Origin: Candidatus Latescibacterota bacterium
Lineage (GTDB): Bacteria; Krumholzibacteriota; Krumholzibacteriia; WVZY01
Assembly: GCA_011772205.1 (NCBI GenBank)
Contig: WVZY01000022.1
Span: 1-64,000 of the forward strand
DNA: 64,000 bases
Direction of reading: 5' to 3'
Shown here piece by piece: positions 9,166-33,521 of this stretch. Every line of letters starts with the position of its first letter. The stretch's first letter is position 1. Below the pieces are notes generated by a model. It was not told where the DNA came from and did no database searches. It worked only from the letters and a program-made list of their open reading frames with translations. Position numbers and translations under genes: made by a program.

Positions 9166-9176
9166 TGGAGCGCGGG

Positions 9177-10873: not shown

Positions 10874-10909
10874 TTTTCGTGGAACCTCCAGGCTGTAGGA
10901 CCGCGGTAC

Positions 10910-11662: not shown

Positions 11663-11693
11663 GGCTGCACTTCCTTCGGTGATCAGAGCTGTT

Positions 11694-12812: not shown

Positions 12813-12866
12813 CGTTGATGTTGCCCTGAAGGTGTACTGATGGTGTCCCCCTGACCAGAGTAATTT

Positions 12867-12895
12867 ATTCTATCACAATAGGAAGCATTTTTCAA
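12867..12895 (-). promoter_or_regulatory. sigma70-like promoter before the aminotransferase gene
   Basis: On the minus strand TTGAAA (12890-12895), a 17-bp spacer and TAGAAT (12867-12872), with a TG two bases upstream of the -10 box. The start point would be about 48 nt before the ATG at 12812. It lies in the 150-bp gap that divides the large minus-strand run, so the aminotransferase segment can be expressed separately. Confidence 0.7.
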
Positions 12896-12962
12896 AGCAT
12901 TTTTTTGCCATGCCGCTGATGGACAAGGAGGCAGGTTGCTCAATAGCGAGATATGTAACAAT

Positions 12963-14210
12963 TTATCCAGTATTAATAAGATTTTTGAAAAGCTCCTCCG
13001 TTCGCTCTGCCTGTGCTTGGGCCCCAAAGCTGTCGGATACCTTGCGCAGGGCGCTTGCTGCCAGCGATTCCGCCAGAGCACGGTCCCCGAGGAGGCGTTC
13101 GATTTGGGCGGCGAACTCTTCAGGCGTCTCGGCCCCGAGAAAATCCTGTTCCCGTTCAAAAGGCATGCCCGCAACGGCCACCGAGCTACAAATCACCGGG
13201 AGACCCGCGAACATCGCCTCGAGTATCCGAATGCGCAATCCTCCACCGAACCGAAGCGGGACGACCAGACAGCCTGCTCTATACAAGAACGGCCGGATAT
13301 CCCCTACCTTGCCTATTATGTCGACCCTCTCATCCGCGGATATATAAGCGAGAGGCTTCGGCAATGCTCCTCCCACGACGGTGATGGTAAGGTCTTCGAG
13401 GTGATCGATTCTCGGGCAGATCCTGCGGACGAAAACGTCCAGTGCATCTCGATCGAACGCCATGCCCATGTCGCCCACGAAAAGAACTTCCCGATCGTGC
13501 CTGTCGCCGCCCGGGCGAGCATAGAACTCAGGGTCCAGGCCGAACGGGAGGATTTCCACTGTGGCCTGGCTGCCAGCGATCTTCCGCACCGCCTGCCGAT
13601 CCCGCTCCGTCAGTGTGAGTATTTTCCGGAACGCGCGGTAAGCCTGAATTTCCTCCCTTTGTTCCACGATCCACCTTCGGACCGCACGGATCTTGGATAT
13701 TAGATTCCTTTCGAAGAGCGCGACCTGGCGGTTCACATGCATGTCGACGTCGTGCGTGAGGAGAACGACCTTAGCCTGTGGAAAAAGACGGGCCATTTTT
13801 TGGAGCTGCCAGTACTCGATCAGGATGAGATCGAAATTCTCCCGTGGCAGGCGCTTCGCTGCTCTCAGCAGGGCACCGGGGCAATCGTAGAGGCTTTTCA
13901 TCGACTGCCTCGCGATGGTGGATGTCAGGAAGTAGAACATTCGGAACGCGATCCGGTGAAGCGCCGATCGGCGGTGGGGGGCGAGCACTGTATCAACGCG
14001 TTTGCACCACTGTTCGAGCGCTTCGGCGAGGGGCGTTTCTGCAGGCGAAAGAATTTTCGATAAGACCGTCACATCGAATCGATCCTTCAATGCGCATATC
14101 AGCCTGAAAGACAGCATCCTCGTATCTCGATCGGGCGGATATGGCAGGACCGGCTTGATCAGAAGGATTCTAGGACGTCGCTTTTCTCCCAACCGCGTTT
14201 CTTCAGCCAT
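12963..14210 (-). CDS. GT4-family glycosyltransferase
   Basis: This 415-residue GT-B enzyme has a KPVLPYPPDRDTRM N-terminal loop (PxPPxxG-like in place of the GGAER loop) and a LLTHDVD segment. The donor domain has LFVGDMGMAFDRDAL, VPLRFGGGLRIRILEAMFAGLPVI and the conserved glutamate pair. Enzymes with this start are common in GT4 members that act on lipid-linked oligosaccharides. Its start overlaps the previous gene's end by 8 nt, indicating translational coupling. A 150-bp gap with a promoter for the next gene follows it. Confidence 0.88.
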   Translation of the reverse strand: MAEETRLGEKRRPRILLIKPVLPYPPDRDTRMLSFRLICALKDRFDVTVLSKILSPAETPLAEALEQWCKRVDTVLAPHRRSALHRIAFRMFYFLTSTIARQSMKSLYDCPGALLRAAKRLPRENFDLILIEYWQLQKMARLFPQAKVVLLTHDVDMHVNRQVALFERNLISKIRAVRRWIVEQREEIQAYRAFRKILTLTERDRQAVRKIAGSQATVEILPFGLDPEFYARPGGDRHDREVLFVGDMGMAFDRDALDVFVRRICPRIDHLEDLTITVVGGALPKPLAYISADERVDIIGKVGDIRPFLYRAGCLVVPLRFGGGLRIRILEAMFAGLPVICSSVAVAGMPFEREQDFLGAETPEEFAAQIERLLGDRALAESLAASALRKVSDSFGAQAQAERTEELFKNLINTG

Positions 14211-15342
14211 TTGTTCGCATTCCTATCAGCTCGAAATATGTTGAATGGATCGCTGCGATCTGCTTGTCGAGCGTAAAATATTTCTCGAACCGGTTCCTCG
14301 CGCTCTTACCCATGCGGCGGCGGAGTTCCGGGCTGGTGAGCACTTTCCGAAGACCTTCAGACAGCCCGCCGGTATCACCTGGAGGTACCAGAAATGCGGT
14401 ACTTTCATCACCGACCATCTCCGGGATTCCGAATATTCGGCTGGCGACAACAGGGAGCCCACACGCCATCGCCTCGAGAATAACATACGGCATTGCTTCC
14501 ATGAAGGAAGGAAGCACGAGAACATCCATCGCGCAGAGCAATCGCTCGACACCATTACCCGAAATGTGACCCAGGAAGCGGACACGATCCCTGATTTGCA
14601 GCTCATTGACCAGGCGCTCGTAGGTTTGCCTTTTCTCACCTTCACCAGCCACGAACAGCATCCAAGAGAGATCCATCAAGGGAACCAGCGCGTCCAGCAG
14701 GACGGGCAAACCCTTTCGTTCGATAAGGCTGCCGACCACCGCGAGCCCTATTACATTGTCGGGAAGAGCGAGGGTTTCCCGTGTTGTCTTCCTTTTCGGT
14801 ACGGCCTTCAATCCGTAGTTTTGGGGGAGCGCGTTCGGAATGACCCTGATTTTTGCGGCAGAAATCTTCTGGCGCTCGATGAGATAAGGGATGTTTGCAT
14901 TACAAACGGTCAGAACCTTATCGACCCAACGATAGGAAATTCCTTTTACAAAAGCGCGCTTCCAGAGCTTCTCCACCATGGGCAGATGTTCCGTCACCAC
15001 CACCCGCGAACCGCCGCACAGCCTCGATATTGGGGCGAGGAGCCCCATCTGCCCGTCATATGGTCCCGGAACGTTCACGTGCACGATGTCCGGGGAAATC
15101 CGCAGCAGCGCGCGGATGATACCGATCGCATCCAATGGACGAAACGGAAGTCCCATTTCGGCATCCAGCACCTCCACATCTTTTCGCTCCAGATCGCGGC
15201 ACCACTCGTTGAGACCCGGTCCGCGTTTGGCAAGCACATAAGGCTCGAAATGCGTTCTATCGAGCGCGCCCGCAATGAGCGCAATGTATCGTTCGGAACC
15301 ACCCGCATATGGGGCATCGACCGTATAGCAGACTTTTATCAT
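14203..15342 (-). CDS. GT4-family glycosyltransferase
   Basis: This 379-residue GT-B enzyme starts IKVCYTVDAPYAGGSERYI, the standard GT4 N-terminal acceptor loop. Its C-terminal donor domain contains VGSLIERKGLPVLLDAL and PSFMEAMPYVILEAMACGLPVVAS. The ATG at 15342 follows a GGAAA ribosome site. The longer frame to 15426 would run into the 853-residue gene and is rejected. It overlaps the next gene at 14203-14210. Its role is to elongate the polysaccharide repeat; the donor is unknown. Confidence 0.9.
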   Translation of the reverse strand: MIKVCYTVDAPYAGGSERYIALIAGALDRTHFEPYVLAKRGPGLNEWCRDLERKDVEVLDAEMGLPFRPLDAIGIIRALLRISPDIVHVNVPGPYDGQMGLLAPISRLCGGSRVVVTEHLPMVEKLWKRAFVKGISYRWVDKVLTVCNANIPYLIERQKISAAKIRVIPNALPQNYGLKAVPKRKTTRETLALPDNVIGLAVVGSLIERKGLPVLLDALVPLMDLSWMLFVAGEGEKRQTYERLVNELQIRDRVRFLGHISGNGVERLLCAMDVLVLPSFMEAMPYVILEAMACGLPVVASRIFGIPEMVGDESTAFLVPPGDTGGLSEGLRKVLTSPELRRRMGKSARNRFEKYFTLDKQIAAIHSTYFELIGMRTNG

Positions 15343-15386
15343 CAGATTTCCATTACCGGTGGACCGGCTACATCCGCAACAAACGA

Positions 15387-17948
15387 CTAGCGGACGAGAA
15401 ACTCTCGAACCTCGAGCGAAGCGCACTCCAATCCGGTGTAGCTGTCCACGTTGAACAGAAAATCCCGGTAAGATTGATTCGGAATCAGCGTGTCTTCGAC
15501 GAGCTTCAATTGCACGGAGTACTCACCCGGTATGAGAGCATTCGGCAGATCGACCTCGATCTCTTCCATTACATATCCCCCAATTGGCCAGATGTCCGGT
15601 GCATACAGTCCGCGAAAAGGTGTATGGTCCACGCGAAACCGCGAGAACCGCCGCGTGCTGCGCTCCCTGACCCGCCGGATATATTTTTCACCGGGATAGT
15701 GTCTCGTCCTCGATAGGAGCGTTCTGTTGTCGAAACGAATGTAAAGCCTGAGCGGAAGAGAAAAATCAACGGAAGCTGTCTTGTCATACACGATTCTCAA
15801 TATAACCGTCTCGCCCGGAATCGCCATATCTGGATCCACAACCACCTGCTTCACCCTTACCGCCCCGTCCCACACTTCGCTTCCGCAGCCCGGATCGATC
15901 GGCTTGTCAGGAAACACAAAAGGATTCGTCGGATACCATGAGTATTGGTCCGGCATGTTTGCGGTTCGCTCGTAGATAATATAATTGGGAGACTCGAACG
16001 CTACTTTGAACGTCTGTGGGAGGAGACCGAACTTGCTCCCAACCTCGGTGAACATCCCCGCGTCCCACATACCGAGGAACTCGCGAACTGGGCGTGCCAC
16101 TCCCCTGTAGCACACGATGTACCGGGCGTCGAATTTGTCCATGGCTGCAAGCGCCTCTTCCTGGGTCGTAAACGGGGACAGGACATCCCGAATCGCTTTC
16201 AATCGCTCGAGCGCCAGTGGATCATTCGGATTCCCATGCTGGTGCAGCACGGTGACGACTTTCGCATCCGAAAACCCGCTGAGCCTGTAGCTGGTGATGG
16301 GATCGGAAACCACGACGCTGCCTCTGGGAGTTTTTCGGTAAAAAAATGTCACGACGTCGGCGAAATCCGGATCGGTACTAGAACTCTTCGCACCCAGTTC
16401 GATCACCGACGACTTGAATGCGCTGAGGGAAGGTGTAAGAAACAGCAGCGCCCAGATGAAAACCAACAGCGCCGCTGAAACCCGTTTGAAGAGCGCTCCC
16501 CTTCTCCCCCAGGCAACCGCGCCGGCAATGACGAGAACAATTGCTTGGAGCGCCGGTATGTTTCCGATCAAGCGGTGGACGAGATAGGTGGCCTTGCCGT
16601 ACAGAAACGGAGTGATCAGGGGATTCAGACAAAGAAGTACGGGCAACAACGATAGCACCAATTGGAGTCTCGCGTATTTCACGTGAGTCCGCAAGATGAA
16701 GAGAAATGGAAGAACCACCATCCCCCCCCAAAAGATGAGACCGTATTTCTTGAGAATTTCCACCGGACTCACCACGAACAGATTCGATCCGAAATAGAGA
16801 AGTCCCTGAGGATGGGTGTGGACAATGTTTCCTGTCTGGTAGGAGGTCGACATTTTCCAAATGCCGAATACCACGGCGACGGAGATGGTGGCAGCAACGA
16901 TGCGCACCCACTCCCTCCGACCGAATCCAAAGATTCCCGGAAAAATCAGGAACGTGCAGGCCAGCAGAACAAATCGCGACAGAACGTCGACATGCATCGC
17001 GCTGCCACCCCAAAAAAGAACCATGGAAACGATAAGGATCGACATCCTCCTTTCCCTTCCGTAGGCCATGCAAATGACGAGGAGAAGCCAATAAAGCGCC
17101 GCAGAGAGGTTTTGCCCGTACGCGGACCGGGCGAGCCAATCGAAACCGAATCCGCCTCCAAACAGGAGAAACAGAACAACACAGGCCATTCGAAATCCCC
17201 CAGGCGGCAGCAATTCCCCTGTGAAAACCACAAAAGCCAGAAACACAATCGGTGAGAGGATGATCGGGAGGTACCGCCAAAGATCCTGAGGTGAGAGTTC
17301 GGACCACACCGAAGCGGCTGCAAGCATCGGGTGGAAAGTCCCTTTCCTGGGATCGCTTTTGACGGGCTGGGATTCTCCCTCAGCGGGTTGGGCCAGAACA
17401 CCTGGCGGATTCACGTCGTTTTCAAGGACGATGGTGCGGATGAAGCCGATATGGTCGCAATGATCCCCCCTGTAATCGATCGGTGCAGGCCTGAGTATGA
17501 ATAGTACACAGACGGCAAAGGCGAGGATCCCATAAACGACTCGCGAGATGCCTGGATCGATGGAACTTCTCAGCCCGACCACTTTCACCGGCTTTCGCAA
17601 CCTCATCCGGTCGATCCAGTATGCAGCAGCGAAAAAGACGAGCAGCGCGATTTCCAAGGCCGTCAGATAGAGAGAGAAGGAAATATCGAGCACGATTGCG
17701 ATCCAGGAAGCAACGGAAATGGCCGCAAATCCAAAGAAAAAAGCCGCCGGTAGATGGAGGAGAAGACTGCCACCGTGGATCTTGAGGAACCTGGTGAGGA
17801 GAAGGTGGCCGGGGATGAGAGAGATTGCCAGCAGAACAATACAGCAACGGACGATCCCGGGAAAGATCCCAATGAGACCCGACAACGTGAGGCCCAGGAG
17901 GATCAACCCGATAAGAGGAGCAGAAATGACGTGGTAAGGCCTTCTCAT
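15387..17948 (-). CDS. large polytopic membrane protein, possible GT-C-like enzyme
   Basis: I do not recognise a named family. The protein has 853 residues. The first about 560 hold at least a dozen hydrophobic segments. A long loop rich in charged residues (about 140-205, including RGDHCDHIGF and ESQPVKSDPRKG) follows the early segments, as in GT-C glycosyltransferases that use lipid-phosphate sugars in the periplasm. The last about 290 residues are soluble and end in a beta-rich part with repeated PGE-x-V/Y turns (GETVILRIVY, GEYSVQLKL). The ATG at 17948 overlaps the stop of the GT2 gene (ATGA), so translation is coupled to a dolichol-phosphate-mannose-synthase-like enzyme. That pairing supports, but does not prove, a GT-C transferase fed by the GT2 product. 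Confidence 0.7.
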   Translation of the reverse strand: MRRPYHVISAPLIGLILLGLTLSGLIGIFPGIVRCCIVLLAISLIPGHLLLTRFLKIHGGSLLLHLPAAFFFGFAAISVASWIAIVLDISFSLYLTALEIALLVFFAAAYWIDRMRLRKPVKVVGLRSSIDPGISRVVYGILAFAVCVLFILRPAPIDYRGDHCDHIGFIRTIVLENDVNPPGVLAQPAEGESQPVKSDPRKGTFHPMLAAASVWSELSPQDLWRYLPIILSPIVFLAFVVFTGELLPPGGFRMACVVLFLLFGGGFGFDWLARSAYGQNLSAALYWLLLVICMAYGRERRMSILIVSMVLFWGGSAMHVDVLSRFVLLACTFLIFPGIFGFGRREWVRIVAATISVAVVFGIWKMSTSYQTGNIVHTHPQGLLYFGSNLFVVSPVEILKKYGLIFWGGMVVLPFLFILRTHVKYARLQLVLSLLPVLLCLNPLITPFLYGKATYLVHRLIGNIPALQAIVLVIAGAVAWGRRGALFKRVSAALLVFIWALLFLTPSLSAFKSSVIELGAKSSSTDPDFADVVTFFYRKTPRGSVVVSDPITSYRLSGFSDAKVVTVLHQHGNPNDPLALERLKAIRDVLSPFTTQEEALAAMDKFDARYIVCYRGVARPVREFLGMWDAGMFTEVGSKFGLLPQTFKVAFESPNYIIYERTANMPDQYSWYPTNPFVFPDKPIDPGCGSEVWDGAVRVKQVVVDPDMAIPGETVILRIVYDKTASVDFSLPLRLYIRFDNRTLLSRTRHYPGEKYIRRVRERSTRRFSRFRVDHTPFRGLYAPDIWPIGGYVMEEIEVDLPNALIPGEYSVQLKLVEDTLIPNQSYRDFLFNVDSYTGLECASLEVREFLVR

Positions 17949-18616
17949 TGGAATCGCTTTTTCACCAGGAAAAATAGATTGCGAAAACCATCCCGCCACT
18001 TCTCCAGCTTCACCTCACCAATCCTCTCGTGGTAATTCACGCGGTACTCCCCGAAACGAATATCCTTCGCCCGGATCGCTTCGATTTTGATTTCTTCGGA
18101 GAACGGCATCCCGCCGCTCGTCACGTTCAATCGAGGATATACATTCGATTTGAACACCCACATGCCCGATTGCGAATCTTTGATGTTCTTCCCGTATAAG
18201 ACGAGCATCGCGATCGTGAGGATCATGTTTCCCATCCGATTCGAAAAACTCATGGCCGCCGGATTTTTCAGCGGAAACCTCGCAGCTGAAACGAAATCCA
18301 GATCGTTGTCGAGCAAATGATCCACCAGCTCGGCGATCTGCTCGGAGGGATAGCTCCCGTCACCGTCCATGGTAACAGTGATGTCCGCGGTCACTGCCGG
18401 AAGGCCTGCCTTGTAAGCGGCGCCGTACCCCTTTCGCTCTTCGAAAACGACCTTTGCACCCAAAGACTTCGCCACCTCGCCCGTCCGGTCTGTGCTATTG
18501 TTGTCGACGACGACGATTTCATCCACGCATGAAGGCATCGCTCGGATCACGTGTTGTATCCCCTCCTCTTCGTTGTAGCATGGAATCACAACGCTGATGG
18601 TCACATCCCTGTGCAT
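17945..18616 (-). CDS. GT2-family polyprenyl-phosphate glycosyltransferase
   Basis: This 223-residue GT-A enzyme resembles dolichol-phosphate mannose synthase or polyprenyl-phosphate glucosyltransferase. SVVIPCYNEEEGI opens the fold, DEIVVVDNNSTDRT and TMDGDGSYP supply the metal- and nucleotide-binding aspartates, and QSGMWVFK closes the acceptor side. No C-terminal membrane helices are present, so it is a soluble or peripheral member. The start at 18616 follows GGAGGT at a good distance; the frame extends 11 codons further up without a ribosome site. Its stop overlaps the ATG of the 853-residue membrane protein, and the two likely act in sequence: charge a lipid carrier, then transfer outside. 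Confidence 0.9.
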   Translation of the reverse strand: MHRDVTISVVIPCYNEEEGIQHVIRAMPSCVDEIVVVDNNSTDRTGEVAKSLGAKVVFEERKGYGAAYKAGLPAVTADITVTMDGDGSYPSEQIAELVDHLLDNDLDFVSAARFPLKNPAAMSFSNRMGNMILTIAMLVLYGKNIKDSQSGMWVFKSNVYPRLNVTSGGMPFSEEIKIEAIRAKDIRFGEYRVNYHERIGEVKLEKWRDGFRNLFFLVKKRFQ

Positions 18617-18645
18617 GCATTTACCTCCAACCTCATTTTGTCCAA

Positions 18646-20160
18646 TCACGAACTCATAAACCGCAAAACCCGATTCGCCACCGGAATGCTGCCCAGCAGA
18701 TCCACTTCTTCGCTACCCAGCACCCTGAGCTTCTTGAACGAGATAATCAATATGAAAACACCCACAGCAACAGCAATCGCTAACTCGAAAATATTATCCA
18801 CGCGAAGGACGATCGGGAAAAGCAATAAAACGGGCAGCGACGCAAGAAAGCACTTGCCGATATAGCGATACGGGATTCGCGCGTCATGCAAAAACCTGGA
18901 AAGCACCCGTTTGTATATGAAAGGAGACAGCGCAATAACCAGGCCAACTGGAAGGATCGCACCGGGCACGCCGAATCTGGGTATCAAAACGATGTCCAAG
19001 CCTATGTTTAAAGCTGCGAGCATGGTGCCGATGAGCAGATTAATATGCGTCTTTTCCATGACATACAGCGACATCGACAAAGGCGTCGCGAAAAATGATA
19101 ACGTAAATATCCCGAAGAACACCTGCGTAGGGACCGCTGCAGGCACCATTTCATTGCCAAAGAGAATCGGAATCATCTTCCCACCAAACGTAATTCCAAA
19201 AAGGCAAATCGGTGCGCAGAGCAGAAACAGCACCTTGTAGTATTTATCGATAGCGATCACGAGATTCGATGCGTCCTTCTCGTAGACTTCGGAGAAGCCC
19301 GCCATGATGATGGGCCAAACCGTACCAGGGACGAATTCGAGCATTGTTTGCGGGAGGCGGTATGCAAGGTCGAAAAAGCCTGTTTCGACAGCGCTCCGGT
19401 AGTAAGCAAGAAACAGCGTTTCCGACTGCCTCCATATAATCATGTTGAGGATCCCCATTGCTGCGAAAGGCAGCGAAAATCTGAACAACCTTCTCCCTGC
19501 AATCCCGGGACCCGGGCTTCCAGCGCCTTCGGCTGCAAAATGACCTGCCGTTTGACTGAATAGCAAAACACATGAGGAGAGGTTACCCACGGCTGCGGCG
19601 ACCAGAACACCGAGAACGCCACCGCCTGCGGGAATGAGAACGAGCAGGAGCGCGATGAATATGACGTGGTTTATGATGGCCGCCATGCTCAGGCGTTTCG
19701 TATCGTAGTGCGCCATCAGGATGTGGGCAACGAGATTGAAAAACAGCTCGAACAGCGAGAGCGCGACGGCGATGCAGATGATTTCCCCGAGCGCTTGGAA
19801 ACGCTCGAATTGGAATAACTGTCCGAGTGCGTGCCTGGAATAATACGTGGCTGCGACGAGAACTATCCAGATAAGCGCCTGTACGGCCGCCACCCGTCGA
19901 ACAAGACGAACCGCCCCTTGAGCATCTTTGGACACGCGCAGGGCGGGAAGAAATTTGAGCAACGCCTGTCCCAATCCCGCCCCCGCAATGATAGCGGAAA
20001 AAGTCAATATGGTCCGAACGAGACTGAGGACACCATAATCGTGACTCCCCAATCCTCTGACAACGATAACACCGCTGGCAAGACTGAGGATGAACCTACC
20101 CGTTCGCGCGAACACGCTCCAGAACACTGCGTTTCCAACCTGCCGCGTTGCTTCGCTCAC
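18646..20160 (-). CDS. polysaccharide flippase (Wzx/MOP superfamily)
   Basis: This is a 504-residue integral membrane protein with about 14 hydrophobic segments, basic cytoplasmic loops and the RxFxFSLPFA and LPQTMLEFVPGTVWPIIMAGFSEVY signatures of the polysaccharide transport (Wzx/RfbX) family. It would flip lipid-linked repeat units from the cytoplasmic to the periplasmic face for polymerisation by a Wzy enzyme, possibly the protein encoded at 30794-32257. It starts at GTG, overlapping the stop of the phosphodiesterase gene by 4 nt (GTGA), so it is translationally coupled to it. Confidence 0.92.
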   Translation of the reverse strand: MSEATRQVGNAVFWSVFARTGRFILSLASGVIVVRGLGSHDYGVLSLVRTILTFSAIIAGAGLGQALLKFLPALRVSKDAQGAVRLVRRVAAVQALIWIVLVAATYYSRHALGQLFQFERFQALGEIICIAVALSLFELFFNLVAHILMAHYDTKRLSMAAIINHVIFIALLLVLIPAGGGVLGVLVAAAVGNLSSCVLLFSQTAGHFAAEGAGSPGPGIAGRRLFRFSLPFAAMGILNMIIWRQSETLFLAYYRSAVETGFFDLAYRLPQTMLEFVPGTVWPIIMAGFSEVYEKDASNLVIAIDKYYKVLFLLCAPICLFGITFGGKMIPILFGNEMVPAAVPTQVFFGIFTLSFFATPLSMSLYVMEKTHINLLIGTMLAALNIGLDIVLIPRFGVPGAILPVGLVIALSPFIYKRVLSRFLHDARIPYRYIGKCFLASLPVLLLFPIVLRVDNIFELAIAVAVGVFILIISFKKLRVLGSEEVDLLGSIPVANRVLRFMSS

Positions 20161-21293
20161 CGCGTCCCTCCCTCAATACAGCCGAGCAGGAATGACTTGA
20201 TCCCCAGGATCGAGGTGGGAAGCGCTCCTGAAGGATGGTTCGTCAGCAGACAGCCTTTCGAAAACCGATCCAACGGATCGTAGCCATGCATCGCCGCAAG
20301 CGGCTCTCTTCCCATAAAACTTGGAACGATCATGAGTCCAGGCGAGAGAAGGAACAATGTTCTTCCATAGGACCCGTCCTCGAAGAAGCACCCATACATT
20401 TTGAGTTCCTCTTCTGAAAGCAATCGCCCCCAGCCACTCTCTTCCAGAAGCTCGGCAATCCCTCCGGCCACACTTTCCTCGCACCAGAACCTTGCCATTG
20501 TCGAGTCGTAGAATGCCTTATAGTCTTTTCCCAGTCGATAACCGTTCCGCGTAATTTCCCCCCACACATCCACCGCTTTGGTGACATCCGTCATTCCATG
20601 GTCGCTCATCACGTTCACCGTTGCCGGTCTGCCTGCCTCCCGGGCTTTTTTGATGATGCTCTCGACGAATCCTTCGTACAGGCTCAGCTTCCGTTCGACC
20701 TCCTGATGAAATACTCCTCTGCGGTGCATGAGCTCATCGAGCTCCGCAGTGTAGAGAAACAAGATCCTTTCGCTGCTATCGATCGAGGAGAGAAGATCGC
20801 GCACATTTTCCGCTTCGGGTGTTCGGTACGTCCAAACGCGGTATGACAAGCCTCTTGACTCGAAACCGTCGAAGATCGACTCCACCGGCAGGCTCCCCGG
20901 ACAATACGGATCGGTCCTCGAAGCAATATCAAAATCGGCCAGCAGACGGAGCGGGATATCATAGAGGTCGTAGTACCCTTTCACCAGGTCCCGCCGATCG
21001 ATCATTCGCTTCACGAGCAGCCGAATCCTTCGCTCTAATGGATGGGGCAGTTCCGGCAAGAATCGCAGCAATCTAAAAGGCGACTCATGACCGGCGAGTC
21101 TGTACATCGCCCACGCCCCGTGACGGTTGGGGAGCTCGCCGGTCAACAGCGAGGGGATGGCTGCAGAACTGTAGCCGAGAACGGTGTCAAGAGGGGCCGA
21201 TCGGTGGAGAAGGTTCCGGCAGAATCCGAAGCTCTCGACAATCTCCCATCCTAGGGCGTCTATTAGAAAGATGATGTGTACAGGTCTTCCCAT
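20157..21293 (-). CDS. type I phosphodiesterase/nucleotide pyrophosphatase family protein
   Basis: This 378-residue protein belongs to the alkaline phosphatase superfamily. IIFLIDALGWE supplies the first metal-binding aspartate. GYSSAAIPSLLTGELPNRHG holds the nucleophile (serine or threonine) and the PTxxTGxxP-like loop. NVMSDHGMTDV holds the second metal site. No signal peptide or membrane segment is seen, so it is predicted cytoplasmic. The ATG at 21293 is preferred over a GTG six bases earlier because GGAG lies at the right distance. It begins 11 nt after the nucleotidyltransferase gene and is coupled to the flippase gene. In polysaccharide loci such enzymes cleave phosphodiester or nucleotide substrates, but the substrate here is unknown. 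Confidence 0.85.
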   Translation of the reverse strand: MGRPVHIIFLIDALGWEIVESFGFCRNLLHRSAPLDTVLGYSSAAIPSLLTGELPNRHGAWAMYRLAGHESPFRLLRFLPELPHPLERRIRLLVKRMIDRRDLVKGYYDLYDIPLRLLADFDIASRTDPYCPGSLPVESIFDGFESRGLSYRVWTYRTPEAENVRDLLSSIDSSERILFLYTAELDELMHRRGVFHQEVERKLSLYEGFVESIIKKAREAGRPATVNVMSDHGMTDVTKAVDVWGEITRNGYRLGKDYKAFYDSTMARFWCEESVAGGIAELLEESGWGRLLSEEELKMYGCFFEDGSYGRTLFLLSPGLMIVPSFMGREPLAAMHGYDPLDRFSKGCLLTNHPSGALPTSILGIKSFLLGCIEGGTR

Positions 21294-21304
21294 CGACACT
21301 CCAG

Positions 21305-22474
21305 CTAATTGATTTTCTCAAAAAGTTCCCGGGCCCGCTCGAAAATCCCGCCCGTCGAATGACCGAATGCACGTGATAATCGATCCAGATGCGGGATGAA
21401 CCCGCGTTCCAGTGCTGCTGTTCCCTCTTCACGGCGTTCCAGGATGACCGCAACGAGTCCGGACAGCCTGAGAGAATCCAGAGGAGATAACCGCATATTC
21501 CGAGCACCGACAAAGAGGGAACGCCACCAGCCAAGTTCCATCCGCTTCCCCAGCACGACAAGCTCGCGAAAATTGCCTGCGATATCACCCTCGCAACATC
21601 TCGTGCGGACGAGTTCATCCCAGGAATGTTTATCCCCCACCTGGAAAAGCCGGGCTGCCATTCCACGCCACAGCGCCAGCACGACTGCTTCCACTGAATC
21701 CCAAACGGACCCAAGAGACGCGTCTCCCTTTTGGAGCGCCTGCTGAAGATCTTCTATCGCTTGATGAGACCGTTCGATTTGATCCAAATCGTCCTTGGAG
21801 AGTAACTCTTGTATTTCCGGATACTCGGCGGCGTTACGGATATAAGACAACCGTTCGGTCGCGCTGGTGGAGTAAAGGTCCAGATATATTAGAAGCGCTG
21901 AGCCAGCATCCATGCAGGTTTTGTGCGCTGTATACATCGCATACCTCTCCAGACCCGGCGAAGGGCTGGTCCAATTTCGAGCAAAAAGACGCTCCTTTTC
22001 TATCAATCGATTCTCAAGCAGATAGAGCGCCTCTTTTTCATCGATCCGTGCGTTCGACTGCTTGCGCATCATTTCAGGGATTCCCGCATCCCCGTAGAGT
22101 ACCCAGTGTGAATCGGTTATTTCCACAGTTCCCGGACGCGCCGGCTGCGCCAGGAGATCTTCCACTGTATAAACACCCACGTCCATCGAGGGAAAGATCT
22201 CAAAATCCTCCCCTTCGAGAAGGATCGTTGAAGCGGCTGCCCGGGCACGTCTCCTGCAGGACTCTAGGTCTGAATCACCTGATATAACGACATAAATGTC
22301 CAGATCAGAATAAATCTCCAGCCGACCGCTTGCATTGAACCACGCGATATCGTTTCGAGCGAAGCTCCCCGCAACAAAAACGGTCTTCACATTATTGCTT
22401 CCTAAAGCTTCGACAATTTTTACACATGTTTTGGTGGCGATAGCTGATAGGATGTCGCTGGGGTTGTCTTTCAT
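21305..22474 (-). CDS. nucleotidyltransferase-fold protein with helical C-terminal region
   Basis: This 389-residue protein has an N-terminal minimal nucleotidyltransferase fold: FVAGSFARND (G36-S37) followed by YSDLDIYVVI with metal-binding D57 and D59, and a possible third carboxylate in EDFEIFPSMD. Residues about 130-389 are mainly alpha-helical with many aromatic and charged residues, and I recognise no named domain there. It lies between the CpsD-like gene (49-nt gap) and the phosphodiesterase gene (11-nt gap), so it is in the export operon. It could nucleotidylate a protein or a small molecule. The ribosome site before the ATG is poor. The function is unknown. Confidence 0.8.
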   Translation of the reverse strand: MKDNPSDILSAIATKTCVKIVEALGSNNVKTVFVAGSFARNDIAWFNASGRLEIYSDLDIYVVISGDSDLESCRRRARAAASTILLEGEDFEIFPSMDVGVYTVEDLLAQPARPGTVEITDSHWVLYGDAGIPEMMRKQSNARIDEKEALYLLENRLIEKERLFARNWTSPSPGLERYAMYTAHKTCMDAGSALLIYLDLYSTSATERLSYIRNAAEYPEIQELLSKDDLDQIERSHQAIEDLQQALQKGDASLGSVWDSVEAVVLALWRGMAARLFQVGDKHSWDELVRTRCCEGDIAGNFRELVVLGKRMELGWWRSLFVGARNMRLSPLDSLRLSGLVAVILERREEGTAALERGFIPHLDRLSRAFGHSTGGIFERARELFEKIN

Positions 22475-22523
22475 GGAAAGGAGAAATCTGGGGTGTTCTC
22501 AAACCGGATGACCGGCCGGCGTA

Positions 22524-23291
22524 TCAGATTCGTTTATACAAGAAATCGGGTATGTAGTACTTCTTCCTGTTCAGAACCACACCTATTACGTTTCCGTCGA
22601 ATCGGACAATCGCATCCATCGATCTTTGGACGACTTCCCGTTTCGTTCGACCCGCATGAACGATCAAAACCACACCATCGACGTATGCAGACATGCGCGG
22701 TGTTTCCGGGGAGCTGACGACGGAGGGAGCATCGAATATCACTGCATCGTAGACTCCCAGGGCTTCCTTCACCAGTGCTGGAAAAACCCGCTTGAGATGG
22801 ATCTGGATGATCGCAGGGTCCTGTTTGCCAACGTGGACCACATCGAGATTGCCATCCGTTGTGGAGTGGGCGATGGACGCCAAACTTCGACCGCCCGAGA
22901 AATAATCGGTGATGCCTGCTTCGTTGCTGAGAGAAAATATCTGCCTGAAGGAAGGACTGCTAGCATTCATTTCGCACAACAAGACACGCCCTTCTCCTTG
23001 CAAGGCCAGCATCCTGGCGAAACTCGTGCTGACCGTCGTGGTTCCCTCGGATGGAGTCGCGCTGGTAAAGAGAAGCGATTTCTTTGGCTTGCCCTCCAAA
23101 GAGGAATCAATGGAATTTCGAAGAATCCCGAGCTGCCTAAAAAAATCTTCTGGAAAACCGTCGAACTCCCCCCTTACCGGCCGAATGCGCGTCTCTCTCC
23201 TTTCTGGTACGGCGGTTGTCTCCCGAGAGGCCGCGGCCCGTTTCCTCCGCTCTTCCTCGGCACGTCGCAGGGCATCGAAAATCTTGCTCAC
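22524..23291 (-). CDS. CpsD/CapB-like P-loop protein with degenerate Walker A
   Basis: This 255-residue protein is related to bacterial tyrosine kinases that control polysaccharide chain length. The start SKIFDALRRAEEER is the pattern of the exosortase-associated kinase family. The Walker A position (residues 77-86) reads SATPSEGTTT, with threonine 84 where the lysine of GEGK(S/T) is required. The Walker A' segment is also weak (LLCEMNASS). Walker B-like VIFDAPSV is kept. The C-terminal tail has tyrosines (KKYYIPDFLYKRI) that could be phosphorylated. It starts at GTG overlapping the previous stop (GTGA). It is probably a partner of the GumC-like protein rather than an active kinase, but activity cannot be judged from sequence. 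Confidence 0.82.
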   Translation of the reverse strand: MSKIFDALRRAEEERRKRAAASRETTAVPERRETRIRPVRGEFDGFPEDFFRQLGILRNSIDSSLEGKPKKSLLFTSATPSEGTTTVSTSFARMLALQGEGRVLLCEMNASSPSFRQIFSLSNEAGITDYFSGGRSLASIAHSTTDGNLDVVHVGKQDPAIIQIHLKRVFPALVKEALGVYDAVIFDAPSVVSSPETPRMSAYVDGVVLIVHAGRTKREVVQRSMDAIVRFDGNVIGVVLNRKKYYIPDFLYKRI

Positions 23292-24133
23292 CGCAGACCA
23301 CCCCACTCCTCCCTGGGATGATCCACCTGATTTGCGAGTTCCTGAATGCTTGCCTCAACCGCCTTTCTTTCGATGATGCGCTGTTTTCTGAGGTAACTCC
23401 TGTGGAGCACTTTGTCGCAAACAGTATTGATCAGCCTGGGGATGCCTTCTGAGAATTCGAAGACCGCGTCATGCGCACCAGCGGAGAAGTGAACACCTCC
23501 CTTTACCATTCCCGCGATCCTCAAGCGGTAGATGATATACCTTCCAACCTCCTCCCGGCTGAGCCGATGCATGCGGAGGATTCCCGGAATTCGCTGTCTG
23601 AACTGGCGCAACTCTTTTCGCAGGAGGACCGCTTCGAGTTCCGGCTGGCCGATGAGCACAATCTGGATCAACTTATGCTGGTCGGTTTCCAAGTTGGACA
23701 ACAACCTCAATTCCTCGAGCACATCAGCCGTGAGGTTTTGGGCTTCGTCAATGACGAGCAGCGGGTTTTGATTCATCGCGTATTTATCGATGAGATAATC
23801 GTTCAGCGCGGTTAGCATTTCCACCTTGGACCGGTTTGCAGTTTCGCATCCGAAATCCCGGAGCGATAAATAGAGCATCTCTTCGAATGTCACCCGCGTA
23901 TTCAGAACGAAGGAAGCGTCGAGGCAGGGATAAAAGGTCTGGACGAACGAACGGATGACCGTTGTTTTTCCGATGCCGACTTCACCTGTGACCGCAAGGA
24001 ATCCCCTCTTCCTGAAAATACCGTAAGCAAGATAAGCGAGTGCTTCCCGGTGAGCTTTGCCCTTGTAGAAGAACCTTGGATCGGGAGTGGCTCCAAATGG
24101 ATTTTCTTTGAGATGATAAAACGATTCGTACAC
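23288..24133 (-). CDS. ExeA/GspA-like AAA ATPase of exopolysaccharide loci
   Basis: This is a 281-residue ATPase. YESFYHLKENPFGATPDPRFFY is the opening of the ExeA family and of the exosortase-associated ATPase. Walker A is GEVGIGKT (50-57), Walker B LLVIDEAQNL, and sensor residues follow in the arginine-rich RQFRQRIPG region. It ends with a winged-helix-like tail. It likely energises or senses assembly of the export complex at the inner membrane. The GTG at 24133 begins one base after the previous stop. The next gene overlaps its stop (GTGA). The ATPase, chain-length, kinase-like and export genes all belong to the set typical of exosortase/PEP-CTERM exopolysaccharide loci. Confidence 0.88.
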   Translation of the reverse strand: MYESFYHLKENPFGATPDPRFFYKGKAHREALAYLAYGIFRKRGFLAVTGEVGIGKTTVIRSFVQTFYPCLDASFVLNTRVTFEEMLYLSLRDFGCETANRSKVEMLTALNDYLIDKYAMNQNPLLVIDEAQNLTADVLEELRLLSNLETDQHKLIQIVLIGQPELEAVLLRKELRQFRQRIPGILRMHRLSREEVGRYIIYRLRIAGMVKGGVHFSAGAHDAVFEFSEGIPRLINTVCDKVLHRSYLRKQRIIERKAVEASIQELANQVDHPREEWGGLR

Positions 24134-24134
24134 G

Positions 24135-25523
24135 CTATTTCCCGCCCCGAATTTCGGATATCGTCGCCAGCACAGGGGCGCCCAAGTATTCCTCAACCTC
24201 GGCCACGTTATTCAGAGAGTGATCGAGGCTCTCGAAGAAGAACGCCAAGCCCAGGGCGACAACGAGGCTCAGGAACGGACCCAGGGCGATCCTCACATAG
24301 TCCTTCGTTTTCTTTGAATAAGGAGCGCTTGCAGGGGATAGCACAACCACTTCCCATTCCGGATTACTCGCCATGGCAACAATGGCTTGGCCTTGTGTCT
24401 CGGTGAGGTTTTCGTACTTCGACTCTAGAAGTCCTATCCGGTGGTCGATTTCACTGAGCTGCATCGCCTTATCGGGGACCGCATCGATCCTGGACCTTGC
24501 GCTTGCGATTTCACCCTCGATGGATTGTTGCTTGGCCACCAGCTCATCGAGATACGATTCTTCTACCCTGTACGCGTTCTCCACTTCCTGCCTGAGTGAA
24601 TTCTGTAGATCCTCGATTTGCTTGCTGATGGCGATCATCTGCGGATGTCTCGGTGTGTACTTATTGACCAGCTCCTCCTGTCGAATCCGGAGCTGCTGAA
24701 GTTGTTGCTTGATCATAACAATGATCCCGGATTGGATCTGCGGCGGAGAAGTTAGAGCCAGCTGACTCTCGAGCTCATCCTTGGGAAGTTTCAATAAACT
24801 TTTCAGATTCCCGACCTTCATACGCTGCGACGATATATCACTGTTCACGGAGGAAAGATTCGTCTCGAGCCTCGCTAGCTTGTCCAGCAGGAACTTTCCT
24901 TCTGCATCAAGACCGAAGAATCTCTCTTGGCTCAGAAATTCGCTTTTCTTTTGCCTCCAATGAAGAAGCTCGGAGCGAATGTCCTGGAGTTCCTCAGCGA
25001 AAAAGTCCGACAGTTCCGGCGGTGCTTTCCTCATCCTGTAATAGTCGGAATAGGCCTGCGTCACCGCAGCGCAGCCAATCTGGCATTCGAACGGTACTAA
25101 TCCGCCGTAGCGAATCGCCAGGACGTTGGACTCCCCCACCACGTCTGCACGAACGGCGCCGGGATTGAAAACGGTATATTCGGGTAGCCCGCCAGCCTTT
25201 GCGGAATCTGCAAACAGCTCCCTGGCCTTTGAAAATACAGCCTCGGAAAGGATCACCTCGATCTGCGAACTCAGCTCCTCTTCCCACGAAAGATATCGAA
25301 CTCCCCCCTTGAAGAGGTCGGATCTCTCCCCCCGCTGAATGAGGATCCGTGAGTTCGACTCCCAGGTTTGCGGCTGCATGGCATTGAGAGCGAGCACCAA
25401 AACGGTTGTGACGAGAACTATCGAGACGATCATGAGTTTCCTGCGGAAAACCACATTGAGGAAATCCCTGACAGTCGCTTCTTCTTTTCCCGTCAGCTCT
25501 TTTGTCTCAGCATTTCTTACCAT
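24135..25523 (-). CDS. chain-length determinant protein (GumC/Wzz family)
   Basis: This 462-residue polysaccharide co-polymerase has a first transmembrane helix at about residues 30-48 (MIVSIVLVTTVLVLALNAM). A large periplasmic part follows with a coiled coil between about 170 and 340 (LRIRQEELVNKYTPRHPQMIAI, the usual GumC motif). A second helix lies at about 400-425 (IALGPFLSLVVALGLAFFFE), ending in LDHSLNNVAEVEEYLG. It has no fused kinase domain; that function would come from the CpsD-like product. The ATG at 25523 follows an AGGA site. It controls the length of the exported polymer with the Wza-like protein encoded just upstream. Confidence 0.92.
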   Translation of the reverse strand: MVRNAETKELTGKEEATVRDFLNVVFRRKLMIVSIVLVTTVLVLALNAMQPQTWESNSRILIQRGERSDLFKGGVRYLSWEEELSSQIEVILSEAVFSKARELFADSAKAGGLPEYTVFNPGAVRADVVGESNVLAIRYGGLVPFECQIGCAAVTQAYSDYYRMRKAPPELSDFFAEELQDIRSELLHWRQKKSEFLSQERFFGLDAEGKFLLDKLARLETNLSSVNSDISSQRMKVGNLKSLLKLPKDELESQLALTSPPQIQSGIIVMIKQQLQQLRIRQEELVNKYTPRHPQMIAISKQIEDLQNSLRQEVENAYRVEESYLDELVAKQQSIEGEIASARSRIDAVPDKAMQLSEIDHRIGLLESKYENLTETQGQAIVAMASNPEWEVVVLSPASAPYSKKTKDYVRIALGPFLSLVVALGLAFFFESLDHSLNNVAEVEEYLGAPVLATISEIRGGK

Positions 25524-25533
25524 AGCTTGGGTC

Positions 25534-26319
25534 CTATTCCTGTTCTCGGCCCGCCTGAGACCTGTAGAACTCGTACACAGCATCAACCTTCCAGACTTCC
25601 CAGCCGCGGATATACAGCTCCATGGGGGGCCTTAGAATATCTCTTAACGTAGTTACAAACTCCGCGACGGATTCGATTCTCTTCTTCGGCACGTAAACAA
25701 TGTCGTTATTCCTGAGGAGGAAATCGTTCTGAATAGCCTCTCCCCTCATGATCGCTTCGATATCTACCTCCACTCCAACGACCCTCTCAACTCCCTCCCT
25801 GCGAATAACGACCGCGTGGTTGGCCTTGCCCTTTGTCGTTATACCGCCGGCAAGAGCAACTGACTGGAGAAGGCTTATCTCCTTATCAAAATCAAACCCA
25901 CCGGAACGGGCAACCTCTCCCAGAACGTATACGACTTTCCCGGCCGACTCCCGCACGATGACAGAGAGATTCGGTTCTCGGAGAATTTCCTCAAAACGAG
26001 CCGTCAAGATCGTGTCCAGCTTCATAGGTGTGTATCCTGCCGCCATCACATCCCCCACATATGGCAGTGAGATCCTGCCATCGCTCCGGACAATGAGAGC
26101 TTGGGTCGTCAGATCCTGATGGTAGAGGAATACGATATCGAGTTTGTCACCGATTGAGATGATGTATTCATTCGTCTGATCCTTTGCGCTCTCGGTGAGG
26201 AATTCGCCCAGCTGTTCTTTTTCGAAAAACTGACCGGGAGGTGGCGGCTCCGCCTTTTTCGAAGCGCAGGCCGATAACACCAACCACAGGCCAATTAGAA
26301 TGCTTACATACGCTTTCAT
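25534..26319 (-). CDS. Wza-like outer-membrane polysaccharide export lipoprotein
   Basis: This is a 261-residue lipoprotein with signal peptide and lipobox LSAC (lipidated C18). The Poly_export domain (YIISIGDKLDIVFLYHQDLTTQALIVRSDGRISLPYVGDV, about 55-130) is followed by an SLBB repeat (GKVVYVLGEVARSGGFDF...). It ends without the long C-terminal barrel helix of E. coli Wza, so it is a short member, like those in exosortase-type loci. It would form the outer-membrane exit with the GumC-like co-polymerase. The gene has its own promoter (26435-26463) and a 109-nt leader. Confidence 0.93.
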   Translation of the reverse strand: MKAYVSILIGLWLVLSACASKKAEPPPPGQFFEKEQLGEFLTESAKDQTNEYIISIGDKLDIVFLYHQDLTTQALIVRSDGRISLPYVGDVMAAGYTPMKLDTILTARFEEILREPNLSVIVRESAGKVVYVLGEVARSGGFDFDKEISLLQSVALAGGITTKGKANHAVVIRREGVERVVGVEVDIEAIMRGEAIQNDFLLRNNDIVYVPKKRIESVAEFVTTLRDILRPPMELYIRGWEVWKVDAVYEFYRSQAGREQE

Positions 26320-26366
26320 CGCTTAAAAAATACTAGAATTTCCAGAAAATGAAAAGCAAACGACGC

Positions 26367-26379
26367 CATCGCTACCCGC
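26367..26379 (-). promoter_or_regulatory. possible ops-like element in the export leader
   Basis: On the minus strand GCGGGTAGCGATG resembles the ops element GGCGGTAGCGTG that recruits RfaH-type antitermination factors in polysaccharide operons. About eight of ten core bases agree. It sits in the transcribed leader of the export gene. No NusG/RfaH paralogue is visible in this window, so the match may be chance. Confidence 0.2.
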
Positions 26380-26434
26380 GCGCCAAATTCGTTCGACAGC
26401 ACCCGTGCAAGACCACAACCTTTTGAAAATGCAA

Positions 26435-26463
26435 AAGTTATCAGCTGCCCGGTAACCTGTCAA
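26435..26463 (-). promoter_or_regulatory. sigma70-like promoter before the Wza-like gene
   Basis: On the minus strand TTGACA (26458-26463), a 17-bp spacer and TAACTT (26435-26440). The -35 box is perfect and the -10 box is weak. The start point would be about 109 nt before the ATG at 26319. Confidence 0.55.
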
Positions 26464-26498
26464 AAGAAAAAAGCGCAAAAAATATGCCAGCTTATCCC

Positions 26499-27203
26499 CT
26501 AGTATGCACCCTTCCTTGCGATGACTGCCGGTAGGGTTTTGAGGAATATCAGGAAGTCGGTTTTGAAGCTCCTGTTTTTCAAATACTCCATGTCCAGGCG
26601 CATCCACTCGTTGAAGCTGATATGGCTGCGCCCGGATATCTGCCATAAACAGGTGATTCCAGGCTTTACTTCCAGCCGCCGCCGGTGCCAAGCCTGATAA
26701 CCCTCGACTTCCGATGGCAACGGGGGACGAGGTCCGACGATACTCATGTCCCCTTTGATCACATTGAAAATCTGAGGGATCTCATCGAGGCTCGAACGAC
26801 GAAGGAATCCTCCAACAGCGGTGATTCGCGGATCGGCTTTTATCTTGAAGACCGGCCCATCTTGTTCGTTCAGATCTTTGATTCTCTCGCGCACCGCGTC
26901 CGCCTCTTTATACATGGAACGAAACTTGAAAAACTTGAACAAACGTCCCCCCTTCCCAACCCGATGCTGCTTGTAAAAAACAGGTCCGGCGGAATCAAGC
27001 TTTATCATCAAGACAATTATCGGGAAAATTGGGATGAGGAGGACCAGAATTCCGGTTCCCACGACCAAATCAAAAACCCGTTTCTCAATTTCGTAAGAAG
27101 AAGATGTCCGCATCTCAAAAGTCGCATCTGAGCCGTTTCTCTCACGAAATGACTCCACAAAATGCTGCTGATTCGGAGTGCCGATATGAAGGTGCGCTTT
27201 CAT
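26499..27203 (-). CDS. undecaprenyl-phosphate sugar-1-phosphate transferase
   Basis: This 234-residue bacterial sugar transferase catalyses the first membrane step of repeat-unit synthesis. It has a hydrophobic hairpin (about 45-70, FDLVVGTGILVLLIPIFPIIVLMI), then KQHRVGKGG, KFFKFRSMY, ITAVGGFLRRSSLDEIPQ, MSIVGPRPPLP, KPGITCLWQI and LDMEYLKNRSF, all standard blocks. The second of two ATGs (27203) lies five bases after AGGAG; a TTG at 27230 is possible but has no better site. It is the first gene of the main locus and follows a leader with a terminator (27263-27295). Its partner export genes start 180 nt downstream. Confidence 0.92.
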   Translation of the reverse strand: MKAHLHIGTPNQQHFVESFRERNGSDATFEMRTSSSYEIEKRVFDLVVGTGILVLLIPIFPIIVLMIKLDSAGPVFYKQHRVGKGGRLFKFFKFRSMYKEADAVRERIKDLNEQDGPVFKIKADPRITAVGGFLRRSSLDEIPQIFNVIKGDMSIVGPRPPLPSEVEGYQAWHRRRLEVKPGITCLWQISGRSHISFNEWMRLDMEYLKNRSFKTDFLIFLKTLPAVIARKGAY

Positions 27204-27262
27204 CATTTCTCCTAATCCACTGTTTTTCAAGTTGTTAAATCATCTCCCCCAACCCGTTGACG

Positions 27263-27295
27263 AAAAAAACCGCACGGCAAGCACCCGAATGCGGT
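27263..27295 (-). terminator. intrinsic terminator inside the leader of the main operon
   Basis: On the minus strand ACCGCA and TGCGGT pair, enclosing a further CGG/CCG stem, and are followed at once by TTTTTTT. The hairpin stands between the promoter at 27429-27457 and the first gene at 27203, so it can only act as an attenuator or a premature stop for this transcript. Confidence 0.8.
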
Positions 27296-27319
27296 ATATA
27301 AAAAAACCTCCAGTAAATC

Positions 27320-27396
27320 TGCTAAAGCTATACCCCATTCAAACGCATCGTGTCATCGCACGAAACTGTCCGCGTGGCAGGAGCAAATCTTTAGCA
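27320..27396 (-). ncRNA. structured leader RNA, possible cis-regulatory element
   Basis: On the minus strand the leader contains TGCTAAAG (27389-27396) and CTTTAGCA (27320-27327), a perfect 8-bp long-range pair enclosing 61 nt. Inside, TCGTG and CACGA (27348-27352, 27359-27363) form a hairpin with a six-base loop. The terminator at 27263-27295 follows. This layout of a closed aptamer-like domain followed by a terminator is the form of a riboswitch or attenuator, but it does not match any class I recognise. The rest of the 27204-27477 gap shows nothing else. Confidence 0.45.
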
Positions 27397-27428
27397 AATA
27401 CTCGAGGCTATCCTCCTTGTTTGGCGCT

Positions 27429-27457
27429 ATTTTATCACGTTTTTTCGGTTTTGTCAA
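27429..27457 (-). promoter_or_regulatory. strong sigma70-like promoter of the exopolysaccharide operon
   Basis: On the minus strand TTGACA (27452-27457), a 17-bp spacer and TAAAAT (27429-27434), preceded by a TG near the -10. The start point is predicted near 27422, giving a leader of about 220 nt before the ATG at 27203. Confidence 0.8.
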
Positions 27458-27477
27458 GAGCAAGAAAGGCGATCCTG

Positions 27478-27657
27478 ATGCGGCGATATGCATTTTATTT
27501 GGTCTCGTATTTGCTTTTAGAATCTGTTAATATAATATATTACATCGGCAGCAGAGCTGCTGAGGATATGACGGCGATCTCAACTAGAGCCCAGGAGTGG
27601 TTCTGGGATCACGCAAACATGCTTGAGCTAATCGGACATAACGCCCTTTGGAGGTGA
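27478..27657 (+). CDS. possible small membrane protein
   Basis: A 59-residue frame from ATG 27478 has an AAAGG stretch nine bases upstream, a hydrophobic start (YAFYLVSYLLLESVNIIYYIG) and a tryptophan-containing tail. Its stop at 27655-27657 overlaps the ribosome site of the next gene, as coupled genes do. No family is recognised. Against it, an AT-rich TATAAT-like box at 27531-27536 within it could be the promoter of the downstream genes instead. Confidence 0.25.
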   Translation: MRRYAFYLVSYLLLESVNIIYYIGSRAAEDMTAISTRAQEWFWDHANMLELIGHNALWR

Positions 27658-32558: not shown

Positions 32559-33521
32559 TTATTTACCTGAGGTTAGCAGAGTATAAAGAAGAGGCATCAT
32601 GATCTCATGGTGCCCTGTGAAAGCGTGGCTCGCCCCGCACCCTTGGAAAGGCCTCGTCAGGACATTTTCCCTTACCCGGTATTGGGGAAGCATGTCGAAA
32701 CTCGCTGCCGTTACACCCTCGGGTTTCCGATCCAGGTTGTAATTGACGGCCACGGCTTTCAAAAAAACTTCCGGCAGCACCACGGCGGAGCCAAAGACGA
32801 TCACCACACCATTGTCGAATAGCTTTCCCACGACCCGTGTGAAGATGCGGAAATCCTTCATGGTGAGCTCGCCGGCCGCGGCCGCGGAAAACGACGGATG
32901 TTGGTGGGTGATGTCCGTCCCAAATGCCAAATGAACGGTAGCGGGAACGGAGTGTCCATATGCGGAGGTAAACAGGCTGTATCTTTTGTGCGGCGCATCG
33001 GACGCCTCGATGTAACGGCCGACTCCCTCGCCCAAACCCAGGCCCTCATCTTCAGCGAGCTTGCAAGCGGAGTTGAAATGATCCGCCGTTTCCTTCGACA
33101 TACCGAAGCGCCCTTTGGGCAACTCCTCCGAAACATCCTCTGATGTCTCACCAAAGAATGCGATTTCGAGATCGTGTATCGTTGCGGACCCCGTGGTTGC
33201 AACGGCGGTGATAAATCCCTTATCGAGGAGCGAGTTCACATAGAGGGAGAGCCCGCACTTGAGCACATGAGCACCGAGGCACCACAGGATCTCCCTCTTC
33301 TCTTCCTTGGCGCGATGCATCGTTTCTGCGAGCCGTTTCAAGGACGCACCGGCCAGGACATCGGGAAACATCGCCGATAGGTACTCGAATTGCCCTTCGG
33401 ATCGATTGGACTGAATGTTCTCGGGATCGACGAATTGATCGAGGCGGACTTTCGATTTTCTGCTGTTAATCGAAATCGACTTTGTTCTCGAAAGATCCTC
33501 CTCCTCGTACTTGCTCGGCAT
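32559..33521 (-). CDS. deoxyhypusine-synthase-like protein
   Basis: This 320-residue protein matches the deoxyhypusine synthase fold. The pattern CLGAHVLKCGLSLYVNSLLDKGFITAVATTGSATIHDLEIAFFGETSEDV is the NAD-binding core with GAHV, K/GLS and the HDxE region, followed by GRFGMSKETADHF. The C-terminal part lacks the eukaryotic SWGK catalytic-lysine region; its end reads FQGCGASHAFTGHHE. Bacteria have no eIF5A, so hypusine synthesis is unlikely. Known bacterial relatives make homospermidine or have unknown roles. The ATG follows GGTGAGG, and the first 56 bases overlap the DUF3108 gene's end, so the two are probably coupled. The function is unknown. Confidence 0.75.
   Translation of the reverse strand: MPSKYEEEDLSRTKSISINSRKSKVRLDQFVDPENIQSNRSEGQFEYLSAMFPDVLAGASLKRLAETMHRAKEEKREILWCLGAHVLKCGLSLYVNSLLDKGFITAVATTGSATIHDLEIAFFGETSEDVSEELPKGRFGMSKETADHFNSACKLAEDEGLGLGEGVGRYIEASDAPHKRYSLFTSAYGHSVPATVHLAFGTDITHQHPSFSAAAAGELTMKDFRIFTRVVGKLFDNGVVIVFGSAVVLPEVFLKAVAVNYNLDRKPEGVTAASFDMLPQYRVRENVLTRPFQGCGASHAFTGHHEIMMPLLYTLLTSGK

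Follow-up and report, generated by a model that had tools for sequence, protein, structure and literature searches.

What decides whether an exopolysaccharide (EPS) operon is transcribed when a long structured leader separates its promoter from its first gene? The question is raised by a 64,000-nucleotide stretch of DNA, here called the window, from a Candidatus Latescibacterota bacterium of the phylum Krumholzibacteriota (contig WVZY01000022.1, positions 1 to 64,000), in which a minus-strand leader of about 215 nt, counted from a start near 27421 to the ATG of a sugar transferase gene, precedes the EPS genes. Judged from sequence comparison, this leader RNA is real and conserved, of the attenuator type, absent from Rfam and met in one phylum in the collections searched. 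It is very probably a previously undescribed RNA switch, because the same fold and a rival pairing that would undo a terminator recur in many relatives with different letters. Its parts, with hairpin 1 abbreviated HP1 and terminator 2 abbreviated T2, are listed below; f1 is the window's own family, and f4 and f8 are further families of the class.

27429 to 27457, minus strand: promoter TTGACA-17-TAAAAT with a TG-extended -10, 11 of 12 consensus matches
27412 to 27416, minus strand: GGAGG close to the 5' end of the RNA, present in alignments of 25 of 25 f1, f4 and f8 leaders
27306 to 27408, minus strand: HP1, a long, interrupted, two-part hairpin with a variable apex, from the minimum-free-energy (MFE) fold, covariation and a covariance model
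27300 to 27306, minus strand: U7 directly 3' of HP1, resembling a terminator (terminator 1), from the sequence
27330 to 27340, minus strand: candidate antiterminator segment GAATGGGGTAT within the HP1 apex, overlapping the 3' strand of helix P2
27287 to 27297, minus strand: antiterminator partner ATACCGCATTC, the 5' arm of T2
27263 to 27295, minus strand: T2, a GC-rich hairpin ACCGCA...TGCGGT followed by T7
26499 to 27206, minus strand: first gene of the EPS operon, a sugar transferase (Bac_transf, PF02397, E 4e-65)

The promoter has its -35 element TTGACA at 27457-27452 and its -10 element TAAAAT at 27434-27429, separated by a 17-nt spacer, and transcription is expected to start near 27422-27421. 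An equivalent arrangement lies upstream of the relatives' leaders, and no other promoter-like site with at least 10 matches was found near the first gene. The fold of the whole leader beats 200 of 200 dinucleotide shuffles (z = -3.84). An earlier note on this DNA had described a perfect 8-bp long-range pair, which is exact (TGCTAAAG, 27396-27389, with CTTTAGCA, 27327-27320) and forms part of a 10-bp core, P1 (TTTGCTAAAG, 27398-27389, with CTTTAGCAGA, 27327-27318); the strong promoter, the inner hairpin and the intrinsic terminator with T7 at 27295-27263 that it reported are likewise present. It had missed the conserved GGAGG at 27416-27412 by the RNA 5' end, and the way in which HP1, whose second helix P2 spans 27385-27380/27336-27331, is finished: its base is closed by GCCTC (27408-27404) with GGAGG (27311-27307), and its own T7 follows at 27306-27300. 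Because of this closure and T tract we count HP1 as a first terminator-like hairpin, so that the leader is predicted to hold two in tandem, HP1 and T2. Folded alone, HP1 reaches z = -5.2, and its counterparts in the leaders L003-L005 range from -2.0 to -4.4. About 57 nt separate T2 from the start codon of the sugar transferase (ATG at 27206), which is preceded by AGGAG. Family f1 has two copies of GGAGG, one at the 5' end and the other in the 3' foot of HP1, and both copies in the window (27416-27412 and 27311-27307) can pair with the same CCTC (27407-27404); competition between them is a possible second switch at terminator 1.

A direct DNA search of 58 relatives returned the window itself as the sole match, because the leaders are too diverged, and homologous leaders were reached through the protein of the first gene, by way of sugar transferase orthologues. 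In f1, f4 and f8 the parts come in one order: promoter, GGAGG, ACGTTTGCTATAG..., the P2 hairpin, ...TCTATGGCAGGCGTTTT, a GC-rich hairpin mostly with a U tract, a Shine-Dalgarno (SD) sequence and the ATG. The T2 hairpin occurs in all 25 f1, f4 and f8 leaders examined, and a U tract follows HP1 in most relatives (UUUU only in some, absent in L003-L005). A covariance model (R1) was built from 11 f4/f8 leaders, with P1 (16 bp) and P2 (8 bp) aligned and the window excluded. Searched against 80 genomes of the phylum, it picked out 21 leaders, all of them in f4/f8, with one true site per genome. Among the sites whose flanks were read, every one directly precedes the sugar transferase gene; a few additional weak hits are antisense mirror matches of the same hairpin. 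No member outside the phylum was found among about 80 sugar-transferase loci, nearly all from other phyla.

Across the 21 leaders, 90.9% of the P1/P2 cells are paired, compared with 83.2% in shuffles and 45-51% with the partner strand slid. Both sides have changed in 13 of the 24 pairs, against 5.4 expected after shuffling, and none of 500 shuffles reaches any of five measures of covariation. This alignment was fitted to the model; an unfitted MAFFT alignment of 11 leaders gives the same picture. The earlier note had staked its proposal on covariation among homologous leaders, and the covariance search in related genomes found it. Changes tolerated in the stem often produce G-U pairs, which disfavours a DNA operator palindrome. 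Both the fold and its linkage to the EPS gene are well supported.

The HP1 apex also has a second potential partner. In the window, GAATGGGGTAT (RNA GAAUGGGGUAU, 27340-27330) can form 10 of 11 pairs with ATACCGCATTC (RNA AUACCGCAUUC, 27297-27287), giving a duplex of -21.5 kcal/mol that is individually significant against shuffles (p 0.005-0.013). Most leaders show such complementarity between the apex and the T2 5' arm and loop, in letters that differ by lineage: UUCCGCCC/GGGCGGAA in L140 and L141, GCCUGCCC/GGGCAGGC in L145 and L146, UAUCACCGGU/ACUGGUGAU in L138 and GCUUCGG.GCUGG/CCCAGGCCGAAG in L131. Swapping T2 between lineages weakens the apex pairing (z -5.6, p 2e-5, the permutation floor), and a control of the apex against the 3' arm of T2 gives nothing (z -0.06). 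Compared with dinucleotide shuffles, the f4/f8 set has an apex:T2 z of about -7, which 0 of 400 reach. In the nascent state, with the 3' arm of T2 absent, the pairing gains 4-14 kcal/mol in f4/f8 and 7.8 kcal/mol in the window, loop costs uncounted. An antiterminator against the 5' arm of the terminator had been proposed in the earlier note, and comparison of relatives upholds the idea in a different register, with only GGTAT/ATACC shared. The pairing as originally drawn (ATGCG plus GGTAT) can be formed, and was rejected at a cost of about 23 kcal/mol relative to the MFE when forced in a nested fold. An alternative pairing that would exclude T2 is thus found in the window taken singly and in the f4/f8 leaders taken together, but not in L004 or L005; the antiterminator is well supported in the relatives and plausible in the window.

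Because the apex pairs with the T2 5' arm through lineage-specific letters, terminator/antiterminator attenuation is supported, and the attenuation-type layout first suggested in the earlier note agrees with the structure, synteny and covariation of the relatives. We consider it fairly probable that the leader is a conserved cis-acting attenuator RNA of the EPS operon, set OFF or ON by apex capture of T2. The regulation itself, that is termination, switching and both the existence and the nature of a signal, we infer from this arrangement. Transcription would start near 27421, HP1 (P1 and P2) would fold, and before reaching the EPS genes the polymerase would have to pass HP1 and its U tract and then T2, both of them terminator-like. 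With both hairpins formed, the OFF state, transcripts would stop at 27300 or 27263. ON would mean that the apex segment 27340-27330 captures the emerging T2 5' arm (27297-27287), so that T2 is unable to form and the polymerase continues into the operon.

Several observations weigh against this proposal. Taken by itself, the R1 match to the window is weak (20 bits; E 0.67 for the whole genome), a result of the longer apex of f1 leaders and the divergence of their P1 ends. Yet the best R1 hit in the 4.1-Mb genome falls at 27420-27307, the exact leader site, which is also the sole hit (E 0.09) in 551 kb comprising the window and sugar-transferase loci from many phyla; the window thus appears to belong to the family by identity of place, which carries the argument where the score is weak. 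U tracts after terminator 1 or T2 are weak in some relatives, and tandem terminators were not seen in the leader sequences of families f2, f3 and f5. The apex:T2 pairing is non-significant in L004 and L005, from the window's own family. The T2-swap effect is partly compositional, since a control with the apex reversed gave z -3.35. The antiterminator crosses P1, which makes the pairing energies approximate. Completion of T2 tips the energies towards the terminated state, by 3-22 kcal/mol (4.2 in the window), so that the ON state would need kinetics or a factor; as modelled, these energies fit a decision taken while the RNA is still being transcribed.

The two strands of the P1/P2 stem are not equally constrained. 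The 5' strand has eight invariant paired positions and the 3' strand two, and mean entropy is 0.60 against 0.81 on the partner strand. Position A35 in A2 is A in 21 of 21 leaders, though its partner fails to pair in nine. In f2, f3 and f5, GGAGG followed by YTTGCTR occurs in six of seven leaders, with a chance probability of about 7e-5 per leader that is flattered by post-hoc choice of the motif. Since the 5' strand is constrained beyond its partner, and GGAGG/YTTGCTR is kept where the terminators are not seen, this strand probably has a role besides pairing. A signal would probably be sensed at the 5' part, GGAGG to UUUGCUA, which is fixed while the partner strand changes. The signal may be a metabolite, an RNA-binding protein, or ribosomes on GGAGG. 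No start codon (ATG, GTG or TTG) lies 3-13 nt after GGAGG in the 25 f1, f4 and f8 leaders, which led us to reject a leader-peptide attenuator; a UUG-CUA-stop minigene noticed by eye was dropped as its reading frame is not kept.

The 5' region varies between families. Many f4 leaders (L128-L132, L135, L136, L139 and L142) have GGAGG between TGTAC-type half-sites, perfectly so in L128-L131 (GTACA-GGGAGG-TGTAC). The flanked motif is possibly a 5'-terminal hairpin or a DNA palindrome and resembles the CsrA consensus, though CsrA is often absent. In the f5 leaders L019, L022, L024 and L027 no tandem terminators are apparent, and the 5' GGAGG or its surroundings can pair with the start-codon region (in L019, GGAGGCC with GGCUUCC over ATGGCTTCC). 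Because this pairing occurs without tandem terminators, it suggests a shift in f5 from transcriptional to translational control.

The constraint on the 5' strand could also reflect a regulator that keeps GGAGG/UUUGCUA single-stranded and HP1 open, in the manner of CsrA, of a NusG paralogue such as RfaH or LoaP, or of RAT/ANTAR systems. Such a protein-binding leader is one concrete control route for attenuation and compatible with it; we regard it as possible, though not probable. In its favour, GUACAGGGAGGUGUAC in the 5' ends of several relatives resembles the CsrA consensus from systematic evolution of ligands by exponential enrichment (SELEX). However, csrA is absent from the organism's own genome, from all six f1 genomes and from many f4/f8 carriers, including a single-contig one; as the leader occurs in genomes that lack the gene, regulation by CsrA at this near-SELEX site was rejected. 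Each genome yields a single detectable NusG, so RfaH/LoaP-type antitermination was rejected as well. Nor is there a family match: the Rfam 15 covariance models gave nothing at gathering score for the leader, and one chance snoRNA hit (E 4.9) at permissive settings, in agreement with the earlier note, which had recognised no known class. The failure to find a sensor partner in the CsrA and NusG paralogue searches speaks for constitutive insulation, in which HP1 and T2 would hold EPS transcription at a low, unregulated level and the apex:T2 pairing would only tune read-through. Both hairpins are terminator-like and every leader is more stable in its OFF fold, but plain terminators would keep neither a one-strand invariant GGAGG plus UUUGCUA across families nor a lineage-specific antiterminator, and we judge insulation unlikely.

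Promoter, hairpin and U tract together also make a complete transcription unit for a small RNA, present in a single copy per genome, and the leader might be a gene for a trans-acting RNA of about 115-160 nt with the EPS operon expressed by leakage. Against this, the same gene follows the leader in different families, the apex is complementary to T2, and no other promoter-like site was found near the first gene; the small-RNA reading seems quite unlikely. A role for GGAGG as a STAB-SD, recruiting 30S subunits and guarding the mRNA 5' end as described for cry3A (PMC4113751), would fit its position near the expected 5' end without a following start codon in the 25 leaders. The STAB-SD mechanism blocks RNase J1, yet no RNase J exceeded the model cut-off in 19 Krumholzibacteriota, and P1/P2 and T2 would be left unexplained, which makes a 5' stabiliser very improbable. 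The apex-capture attenuator can also be cast in a bolder form, as a new, Krumholzibacteriota-specific class of RNA sensor, a riboswitch or an element like an RNA thermometer, that turns EPS on and off through the apex:terminator antiterminator and reads its signal by GGAGG/UUUGCUA without CsrA, NusG paralogues or RNase J, while the 5' element in f5 may instead hold the start codon. We put this forward only tentatively, as somewhat improbable.

Among known systems, the epsC motif, or EAR, of Bacillus subtilis is a structured cis RNA in an exopolysaccharide operon that is tied to read-through of intrinsic terminators (PMC2864571, PMC7858274). The Krumholzibacteriota leader is likewise a structured cis RNA of an exopolysaccharide operon linked to intrinsic terminators, but its terminators lie inside the leader, it has no Rfam match, and its operon shows no excess of terminator-like sites (23 in 8000-27600, with 20.3 expected), which led us to reject processive antitermination of distal terminators. 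With attenuating riboswitches such as GEMM, which senses cyclic di-GMP (c-di-GMP), it shares the position in a 5' leader, a conserved fold and mutually exclusive antiterminator and terminator. It differs from them in belonging to no Rfam class, in having no multi-helix aptamer with an invariant pocket and in the placing of its conserved letters, chiefly along a single strand of a long hairpin; Rfam 15 recognised no c-di-GMP riboswitch in the leader. Leaders controlled by CsrA are known, for example that of E. coli pgaA. The Krumholzibacteriota leader resembles them in having a GGA motif near the 5' end, which in some relatives may sit in a hairpin loop, and in preceding an EPS-type operon, whereas csrA is missing from its own genome and from many carriers. 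Like RfaH/ops and LoaP targets it is a promoter-proximal element before a long surface-polysaccharide operon, but no second NusG-like protein is detectable in the leader genomes.

On the same strand, the sugar transferase gene is followed by genes for a polysaccharide export protein, Wzz and an AAA ATPase, and by further open reading frames to about 1.4 kb. A second sugar transferase of the same family lies downstream in the cluster (10910-11662, minus strand), with no such leader upstream. Two tRNA genes (1088-1160 and 1265-1336, minus strand) near the end of the EPS cluster are the window's only Rfam matches. The product of a gene at 32559-33521 (minus strand) has a weak match to an ArgZ-like C-terminal domain; as a gene with a similar C-terminus directly adjoins the EPS leader on its upstream side in L004, L007, L014 and L017, this gene and the leader were probably ancestral neighbours.

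We found no literature linking Krumholzibacteriota with exopolysaccharide. That neither CsrA nor NusG paralogues were found points to a signal or a binding protein new to EPS control. The leader adds a phylum-restricted RNA family, tied to extracellular polysaccharide, in a group with little experimental work, and because its antiterminator and terminator segments are defined, the regulatory model can be put to a direct test in vitro.
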